DNA of 64,000 bases from a bacterium HR11 (GTDB lineage: Bacteria; Acidobacteriota; HRBIN11), in assembly GCA_002898535.1 (NCBI GenBank), contig BEHN01000010.1:1-64000 (forward strand), written 5' to 3'. The notes below the pieces were generated by a model. It was given only the letters and a program-made list of their open reading frames with translations. It was not told the origin of the DNA and made no database searches. The translations under genes and the position numbers were made by a program. Below, piece by piece: positions 42,505 through 61,007 of the stretch. Positions within the stretch are counted from its first letter, which is position 1. Each line of letters begins with the position of its first letter.

Positions 42505-42597
42505 GCACTATTCGCCGTTCGTCCTTCATTTCGGGCGGTAGGGAAGGCCGATCGGGCGCCACTCCCACCAACCGAACGGCTCTGACAAGAGGGGTAA

Positions 42598-42856
42598 CAG
42601 AGCCGTTCGGTTCGTGAGAATGGCGTCAGAACAACCTTTCCCAATGCCCGGGAAGCACGATTTTTCAAGCATCCGGCAGATGGGCAGGTCGGCAGATAGG
42701 CAGATAGAAGCCGGGTGGGTAAGGATCAGCCCCAGGGCTTTTGGGACCATCTGCCCATCTGCCGAACTGCCTATCTGCCAAAGCTTGAAAAACCATTCTT
42801 CCCAAAGGGTCGAAAAAGCCGAATCCATGCGGGTTTTCACCAACCGAACGGCTCTG
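42598..42856. mobile_element. MITE-like element copy B, 259 bp
   Basis: Both ends carry the perfect 15-bp TIR CAGAGCCGTTCGGTT followed by xGTGA. The interior has two inward-facing TTTTTCAAGC motifs around a period-8 core. It has the same length as copy C (46387-46645) and is nearly its exact inverse. A right end of another copy abuts it, 13 bp to the left (end at 42584). Confidence 0.88.
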
Positions 42857-46386: not shown

Positions 46387-46645
46387 CAGGGCCGTCCGGT
46401 TGGTGAAAACCCGCATGGATTCGGCTTTTTCGACCCTTTGGGGAGAATGGTTTTTCAAGCTTTGGCAGATAGGCAGTTCGGCAGATGGGCAGATGGTCCC
46501 AAAAGCCCTGGGGTTGATCCTTACCCACCCGGCTTCTATCTGCCTATCTGCCGACCTGCCCATCTGCCGGATGCTTGAAAAATCGTGCTTCCCGGGGGAT
46601 GGGAAAGGTTGTTCTGACGCCATTCTCACGAACTGAACGGCTCTG
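46387..46645. mobile_element. MITE-like element copy C, 259 bp, inserted between AAA and VWA genes
   Basis: The left end CAGGGCCGTCCGGTTGGTGA starts immediately after the TAA stop of the AAA gene. The right end, reverse-complemented, is CAGAGCCGTTCAGTTCGTGA. The body is the near-exact inverse of copy B at 42598-42856, at the same length, including an interior with CAGATGGG-type octamers and GGTCCCAAAAGCCCTGGGG. Confidence 0.88.
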
Positions 46646-46712
46646 TGCCCGAGGGGCACGGTTTTCCAAAAGTGACGGAGTCGGAGAAAAACGGTTTCTA
46701 AGCAGGAGGGCC

Positions 46713-57824: not shown

Positions 57825-57865
57825 ACGATTTAACTTGTAGTGAACTCTAATAGAGGAGGGTGGCT

Positions 57866-58183
57866 ATGCGGTTACGCTGGCTCCTCATCGGGATTTTGGC
57901 ATGGGCGCTGGGCCTATTTTCGGGACCTTCCGGCAGTCGATTTTCACCGAATTCATCCACCGTCGATGTGAAGTCATGCTTGCCTATCAGCAGTTCCTCG
58001 GGGACAGCCGTCGCCGGATGTAGTGCGACGCCCAGCTGTCCGGATTACTGCGTCTCCTGCAGTTGTCCTGCGTCGTCACCATGTGAAGGTTGTCATTGTA
58101 CCCCGGAGATCTGTGACTGTTATGATCCGACCCAGGGTTGCAGAGTTTTCCGAGACTGCTGGGGGTTCTGGTGCTGTGTGTAA
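57866..58183 (+). CDS. Small secreted cysteine-rich protein (MADH light-chain-like motif)
   Basis: 105 residues from the ATG at 57866, with a strong GAGGAGGG eight bases upstream. Residues 1-22 are a signal peptide (LRWLLIGILAWALGLFSG). The mature part has 15 cysteines in about 80 residues, ending EICDCYDPTQGC and FRDCWGFWCCV, and only two tryptophans. From memory, the methylamine dehydrogenase light chain, also small, secreted and Cys-rich, contains CYNPTDG and YRDCCGY in the same order and spacing class; its cofactor is built from two tryptophans. The next gene encodes a secreted propeller-like protein, as the MADH heavy chain is. The similarity is short and the protein shorter than MauA, so function is unproven. 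Base composition is less GC-rich than neighbours. Confidence 0.72.
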   Translation: MRLRWLLIGILAWALGLFSGPSGSRFSPNSSTVDVKSCLPISSSSGTAVAGCSATPSCPDYCVSCSCPASSPCEGCHCTPEICDCYDPTQGCRVFRDCWGFWCCV

Positions 58184-58360
58184 GCTCACCGAGGGGTTTG
58201 GCCCGTGAAAACGGCGTCGGACCGACCTTCGGTTATCGGCTGGGGATCGCTGGTTCTCCAGCCAGGGGGGTCGAACAGCCCGCATTTTCCCGAGCCGAAC
58301 GGTATGGTCCATGGAATACTCTACGAATCCCCGAAACGCAGTGCGTCGTGGAGGTCGGCC

Positions 58361-59461
58361 ATGAGGTCGCTTCGAGGATTGTGTCTTATAGGGATGGGGG
58401 CCCTGATGGTCCTCGTCTTGGGGGGCGGGGTCTTCGAGGCGGTCTTCGCCGAGGCCCCGGCTTGGGCGGAATGGCCGGTCCAGAAGGTCGGAGAGCACCC
58501 CCTCCCCCTGGACCCGGACGAATTGGCTGTCTATCGGACGGTTACTTTGAAAGGAGAGAAGCTATTGGTCGTCGACAACGACCTGGACCTGACGCGGGCG
58601 ACGGTGGCCTACTATAGAGATGGCCGTCTCGTCTGGCAGACTTCCCTTCCCACACCCGTCACGGCGGCTGACGTCTGTCCCGACGGTATCGTCTTTATTA
58701 CCGGCCGGCGGGTCTCTCAAGTCGATGAAGGCGGGCGCCTCCTGCAGGAGTGGACCGTCCCGGGTCAGTTCTATTTGGCTCAAGTCGTCTGCACGGCCGA
58801 CGGCATTTTTGTCGCTTACGTCGCAACCGGTGTGGTCCAGATCCAGCTTTACTCTTCGCGCGGTACGCTCCTCAAGTCCTTGGCGCCGGTACCGGTGGAA
58901 TGGATTCGCACAGCGCGAGCGTTCGTTTGGAGTTTTCGCGGATTTCCGAACTATGCCGGGAAGGCGCTCTTAACGGGTAAGAATCGGGGTGAGTGGTTCA
59001 TCGTGGATGCGCGAGGAGATCGGCCGATGCTGTATTCGCCGTCCGACGACTTCTGGCAAGCCCTGGAGAATCGCCAAATTCGGCGGATCTTTCCCGTGAT
59101 GTGGCAGGGTCGGGAGGCTCTGCTGGTCGGAGTGTCTTACAGCGAACGGCTCCCCCTGGAAGATTACGTGCGAAAGTATGGGGTCCCTCCAGAAAAGGCG
59201 CAAGACCTACGGGACCTACTCAAGGACAAGCCCAACCCGACGGTCCCGGTCTCGTCGGGCCATCAGCTATGGGTCCTGGACCTTCGAGGCCAGCCCTTGG
59301 GTCGGATAGCATATTCGCACGAGATCAATGTCATCTTCCCCACGACGACGGATACCACGGGGAATCGGTTGGTCGTGCTTCAGGAGCCTCTCTGGCCGCC
59401 GAGGAAGCACCGGTACATCTGGCGGGTCTTTGCCCTCGGGGCGGGGTCGGCGGCTTTATGA
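58361..59461 (+). CDS. Secreted beta-propeller-like protein downstream of the Cys-rich peptide
   Basis: 366 residues from the ATG at 58361 (GTGGAGG upstream; the frame opens earlier at 58205). A signal segment (LCLIGMGALMVLVLGGGVFEAVFA) is followed by repeated beta strands such as LLVVDNDLDLTRATVAYY, GIVFITGRRVSQVDEGGRLL, GIFVAYVATGVVQIQLYSSRG and LWVLDLRGQPLGRIAYSHEI, spaced like propeller blades. It is in the same direction as the 15-cysteine protein with a 177-bp gap. A heavy-chain role in a two-subunit periplasmic enzyme is a hypothesis from layout and a weak HEI match. No function can be assigned from sequence alone. Confidence 0.7.
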   Translation: MRSLRGLCLIGMGALMVLVLGGGVFEAVFAEAPAWAEWPVQKVGEHPLPLDPDELAVYRTVTLKGEKLLVVDNDLDLTRATVAYYRDGRLVWQTSLPTPVTAADVCPDGIVFITGRRVSQVDEGGRLLQEWTVPGQFYLAQVVCTADGIFVAYVATGVVQIQLYSSRGTLLKSLAPVPVEWIRTARAFVWSFRGFPNYAGKALLTGKNRGEWFIVDARGDRPMLYSPSDDFWQALENRQIRRIFPVMWQGREALLVGVSYSERLPLEDYVRKYGVPPEKAQDLRDLLKDKPNPTVPVSSGHQLWVLDLRGQPLGRIAYSHEINVIFPTTTDTTGNRLVVLQEPLWPPRKHRYIWRVFALGAGSAAL

Positions 59462-60855: not shown

Positions 60856-61007
60856 GGCGTTAAAAAGGGCGAACGGCGAATCGGCAGGGCCGTTCAGCTC
60901 CTGAGAATCCGGATGCCCTCGGCCTTTCCGATCCCCCGGGGAGGCCGATCTGCCGGCATCGGGCAGATCGGCAGTCGGCAGATGGGCAGATGGTTCAGGA
61001 TCCCGCA

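Follow-up and report, generated by a model that had tools for sequence, protein, structure and literature searches.

The closest described systems to the gene pair analysed here are methylamine dehydrogenase (MADH) and the NVEALA peptides. In MADH, a small disulfide-rich light chain, MauA (PF02975), is partnered with a propeller heavy chain, MauB (PF06433), and the formation of the light-chain disulfides is assisted by MauE and MauD. In the Bacteroidetes, NVEALA peptides are encoded next to TolB-like/BF3164 six-bladed propellers. Literature searches for peptide-propeller pairs such as those described below returned nothing.

The window, a 64,000-nucleotide stretch of DNA from the Acidobacteriota bacterium HR11 (genome G000), carries a small gene followed, 177 bp downstream on the same strand, by a gene for a propeller-like protein. 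The pair is on the + strand, between two - strand genes, an APC permease and a PPOX gene (the flanking genes were assigned by reading their ORFs). The initial annotation saw in this pair either a tryptophan-derived-cofactor enzyme related to MADH or a disulfide-rich ligand with its propeller receptor. The features of the locus are as follows:

57854-57859, + strand: Shine-Dalgarno sequence AGGAGG of the small gene, 6 nt ahead of the ATG
57866-58183, + strand: small gene, an orphan, encoding a 105-aa exported protein with 15 cysteines (ORF list and sequence)
57866-57931, + strand: hydrophobic, signal-like N-terminus of the small protein, MRLRWLLIGILAWALGLFSGPS (hydropathy maximum 2.5)
57977-58177, + strand: Cys-dense region of the small protein, residues 38-104, with CxC, CxxC and CC spacings
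58118-58168, + strand: stretch CYDPTQGCRVFRDCWGF (CYDPTQG...FRDCWGF, residues 85-101), MauA-like at the level of shuffled sequences
58184-58360, + strand: intergenic stretch, about 42 bp of which are similar to an inverted-repeat element dispersed in the genus
58350-58354, + strand: Shine-Dalgarno sequence GGAGG of the second gene
58361-59461, + strand: second gene, encoding a 366-aa exported propeller-like protein (ORF, six repeats by eye, weak AF2 model with Foldseek, profile score)
59156-59218, + strand: helical insert in a late blade, LPLEDYVRKYGVPPEKAQDLRDLL region, the best-confidence part of the weak AF2 model
59305-59461, + strand: 3' end of the propeller gene, kept in the congener G001 at 79% amino acid identity, the rest being missing there
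59315-59326, + strand: SHEI tetrapeptide, residues 319-322 of the second protein; the surrounding segment is the best, weak, MauB profile match

The small gene was first described as encoding a secreted 105-residue protein with 15 cysteines and two tryptophans in its mature part, and this holds. The cysteines are at residues 38, 52, 58, 62, 65, 67, 73, 76, 78, 83, 85, 92, 98, 103 and 104, and W99 and W102 are the only tryptophans of the mature part, which has few hydrophobic residues and an odd number of cysteines. Among 2784 short ORFs in about 480 kb of its own genome, this ORF is by far the most Cys-dense, and because it is such an extreme outlier it is not a product of chance. Searches of Pfam (to E <= 10) and NCBIfam gave zero family matches for the small protein, and a PDB sequence search with both proteins returned only insignificant, compositional matches. 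Another exported Cys-rich ORF, of 113 aa with 11 cysteines, is encoded in the same genome (contig C6, 5191-5529, - strand).

The secreted, propeller-like protein claimed to lie downstream was likewise found, with a hydrophobic N-terminus and with SHEI near its end. Its start is best read as the ATG at 58361 rather than that of a longer GTG ORF at 58205, because the ATG is preceded by the GGAGG and opens a hydrophobic N-terminus. Six repeats are readable by eye. Prediction by AF2 with no alignment gave a beta-rich model (pLDDT 50), too weak to decide the fold, for which the Foldseek matches were largely beta-propellers at low TM. Against a six-bladed profile built for this study the protein scored 3.4 bits, above all 300 shuffles and best of 302, but with an E-value of 0.72. 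A Pfam search gave no match to the six-bladed families PF17170 and PF15869, and the only Pfam and NCBIfam hits, DUF4350 (E 0.026) and PQQ_2 (E 0.074), both fell short of the cut-off. The second protein is probably a six-bladed beta-propeller.

The wider phylum was surveyed for similar arrangements. PF17170 six-bladed propellers are present in 70 of 199 phylum genomes, and some of them, in four further families (f36, f48, f54 and f56), are adjoined by exported Cys-dense short ORFs. In 720 kb from two genomes, on contigs picked in the knowledge that they held PF17170 genes and in some cases such ORFs, five of the seven exported Cys-dense short ORFs lay within 300 bp, and on the same strand, of one of seven propeller genes; random placement reached this association in 0 of 200,000 draws. 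The filter for Cys-dense ORFs was written after the first examples had come to light, and the sampling outside propeller-rich regions covered few genomes. A replicate on 20 further regions from nine genomes, mostly 20 kb long and chosen for their propellers, placed three of four Cys-dense ORFs beside propellers (p 0.00015 against positions drawn inside the same regions), one of the three having already been noted in a shorter excerpt of its locus. In one genome of the replicate (G119) two 10-Cys ORFs adjoin a single propeller, while the majority of propellers in the set have no Cys-dense ORF alongside. In these relatives, exported Cys-dense ORFs accompany six-bladed propellers far more often than random placement predicts.

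The neighbours of the relatives' pairs include MauE (L090, E 1e-23) and AhpC-TSA/redoxin proteins (L134 and L136). At the pair loci L095, L102, L057, L118, L119, L196, L090 and L136, from genomes G060, G110, G119 and G193, the ORFs carry 5-13 cysteines, and at some of these loci the neighbour is a MauE, a redoxin or an AraC-type regulator. At a further locus (L124, genome G110), where a 10-Cys exported peptide accompanies a propeller fragment, a radical SAM protein (PF04055; 1511-2308, - strand) is encoded on the opposite strand at a distance of about 0.9 kb; peptide modification is a possible role for it. The Cys-dense peptides of the relatives match no Pfam or NCBIfam family. Homology between them and the window peptide was undetected: with the cysteines kept in place one of nine comparisons fell below p 0.02, which multiple testing can explain, the peptides compared being those of phylum members that are distant and lower in GC.

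The explanation we favour, and to which we give about an even chance of being right, is that the two genes form a unit with two exported products, a lineage-restricted orphan peptide rich in disulfides and a propeller, probably six-bladed, that most likely binds or scaffolds the peptide in the envelope. The two genes would be co-transcribed, and the peptide would be exported and its cysteines oxidised to disulfides outside the cytoplasm, where the propeller product may bind it. The peptide might then be the variable working part (a signal, an antagonist or a surface ligand) and the propeller its holder, receptor or protector. Support comes from the strong Shine-Dalgarno sequences, the hydrophobic N-termini, the 15-Cys outlier, the repeats, weak model and profile score of the second protein, the remnant in the congener G001 described below, and the recurrence of a similar arrangement in other families, at times next to MauE or redoxin-like genes for thiol oxidation. 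Against it stand a window propeller with no six-bladed Pfam match and a profile score that is not significant by its E-value, a peptide with no detectable homology to the others, and the finding that no thiol-redox gene adjoins the pair in the window. If peptide and propeller do cooperate, they represent an envelope system that is uncharacterised so far, in which the Cys-rich peptides change rapidly and the set of genes in some relatives recalls that of MADH.

A broader version of this explanation can be entertained, though we consider it somewhat unlikely. Here, the pairs across the phylum would constitute a general module, so far undescribed: six-bladed propellers would hold exported Cys-dense peptides that evolve fast, and MauE or redoxin proteins would oxidise these peptides. 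Such a module would be assembled like the MADH cluster, from a propeller, a small disulfide-rich subunit, MauE and a MauD-type thioredoxin, without the quinone cofactor, and the window pair would be a stripped-down member. If this were true, MADH could have arisen as a specialised branch of peptide-propeller pairs.

The history of the locus within the genus bears on a different explanation, namely that it is young or decaying and of little importance, comprising fast-evolving orphan genes that are being lost. Searches by tblastn covered the own genome, 60 relatives and 396 genomes of the phylum, as well as plasmids, viral contigs and GTDB contigs. They detected a single relative, a remnant of the propeller gene in G001; the pair is orphan at all search depths. 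In this congener the final ~53 codons of the propeller gene survive at the syntenic site, the greater part of that gene and the whole small gene being absent; the flanking stretches share 87-91% DNA identity with the window, and a dispersed inverted-repeat element of about 115 bp sits at the junction of the missing block. In a second congener, G002, an alpha-2-macroglobulin-like gene is followed directly by PPOX, with neither permease nor pair. The dispersed element, about 110 bp long with inverted terminal repeats, was noted in the window at 42597-42853 and 46391-46646 and at L028 2653-2767, as well as at this junction. A low-complexity intergenic repeat at 60878-60998 of the window has over 40 matches in G001.

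Composition is also atypical. As initially noted, both genes are less GC-rich than their neighbours (56% for the small gene and 61% for the second, versus 67-73%), and the third-position GC is 0.58 and 0.72, respectively, versus 0.85-0.91. The transfer of both genes that had been proposed from such values finds partial support. Because the 3' end is retained in G001 in its syntenic position, the propeller gene most likely predates the split between G000 and G001; its presence is variable within the genus, and it may have been transferred into the genus earlier. Orphan status, atypical third-position GC, the remnant beside a repeat element and the absence of the block in G002 would all suit a young or decaying locus. 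However, in G000 the ORFs, Shine-Dalgarno sequences and export signals are intact, and the G001 remnant is frame-preserved at 79% identity. We regard a young or decaying locus of little importance as unlikely.

Less likely again is that the small gene encodes an exported metallothionein-like, metal-binding protein beside a functionally unrelated propeller. The dense CxC, CxxC and CC spacing, the odd cysteine count and the paucity of hydrophobic residues in the mature part would fit metal binding. However, the CxC count is not above that of shuffled sequences of the same composition (p 0.59), the export-type leader would deliver the protein to an oxidising compartment, and it would stay unexplained why such ORFs accompany propellers in relatives.

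Under the MADH reading, the small protein would be a TTQ (or CTQ) light chain of minimal or divergent form, and the second protein would be the heavy-chain propeller that goes with it. The mau genes that the initial annotation proposed to look for do exist in this genome, as a true MADH in a separate mauB-E-D-A cluster:

G000, contig C27, 20964-24600 (L029, 6965-10600): MADH cluster encoding MauB, MauE, a MauD-like protein, MauA and a cytochrome c, then a multicopper oxidase

The light chain (PF02975, E 7e-49), heavy chain (PF06433, E 3.5e-90) and MauE (E 1e-27) of this cluster are clear matches, the MauD-like protein is a thioredoxin, and alignment shows both TTQ tryptophans preserved in the light chain. 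The cluster was found in one of the 60 genomes searched. No match to MauG/CCP (PF03150) was obtained in G000, a 95% complete genome.

What had suggested MADH was the resemblance of CYDPTQG...FRDCWGF to CYNPTDG...YRDCCGY of MauA, and no similarity to the MauA profile beyond chance was found, an outcome that the initial annotation had named as refuting its idea: against eleven MauA sequences the small protein scores as its own shuffles do (p 0.19, and p 0.19 with the cysteine positions kept), and hhalign gives a probability of at most 1.2%, again at shuffle level (shuffle p 0.17-0.23). There is no PF02975 match in Pfam at E <= 10, and the PF02975 search of the own genome placed only the C27 gene above the cut-off. 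Both TTQ tryptophans, in WVASC and WCFGA contexts, are present in the genome's true MauA and its relatives. W99 and W102 were considered as a TTQ pair and discarded, being three residues apart with neither aligned to a TTQ tryptophan, and the protein ends before the position of the second. In the alignment the small protein does not follow the conserved cysteine pattern of MauA, and the leader MRLRWLLIGILAWALG contains no twin-arginine RR. Descent of the small protein from MauA as a paralogue was rejected, since the similarity is at shuffle level.

The second protein has no PF06433 match in Pfam, and its 1.5 bits against a MauB profile are no better than the 3.4 bits obtained with the six-bladed profile. 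Its MauB score ranks first among 21 propellers (30.1, the next being 28.3) and is above 60 shuffles, and hhalign aligns the region around SHEI to MauB with a probability of 10.8 and a P of 0.0029, equal to the P against the six-bladed profile. At a probability of about 11%, with a signal that is not MauB-specific, a remote tie to MauB is no more than a possibility. The neighbours of the pair are the APC permease and PPOX genes, with neither mauE nor mauD beside it.

In spite of the shared motif, the SHEI segment and the true MADH of the same genome, the MADH reading is therefore very improbable on the shuffle-level MauA score, the missing tryptophan partners, the short protein, the leader, the unmatched families, the gene neighbourhood and the unspecific MauB signal. 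An MADH-type annotation of the pair, tempting as it is, is thereby corrected as unsupported. Of the original interpretation, the enzyme is unsupported, and the disulfide-rich ligand with a propeller is compatible with all findings and strengthened because Cys-dense ORFs recur beside six-bladed propellers in other families.

Compared with the known systems, the pair differs from MADH in its lack of above-chance profile similarity, of TTQ tryptophans and of an RR leader, in its shorter length, in its reversed gene order, with the small gene first, and in having no mauE or mauD alongside. It resembles MADH in that a small Cys-rich exported protein is encoded with an exported, probably propeller, protein, and in one short similar motif. 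With the NVEALA pairs it shares a short exported Cys-rich peptide and, probably, a six-bladed propeller, although neither the window peptide nor those of the relatives match NVEALA or any other Pfam or NCBIfam family. From the pairs of its own phylum it differs in its non-homologous peptide, in a propeller with no PF17170 match and in having no MauE or redoxin neighbours; in those pairs the peptide is found either before or after the propeller, and in the window it comes first. Because the window peptide has no detectable homology to the relatives' peptides, the window pair would join them, provided that its second protein is a propeller, by architecture only. That architecture is a short ORF of ~60-105 aa with many cysteines and in most cases a hydrophobic leader, encoded on the same strand and within ~260 bp of a propeller gene.
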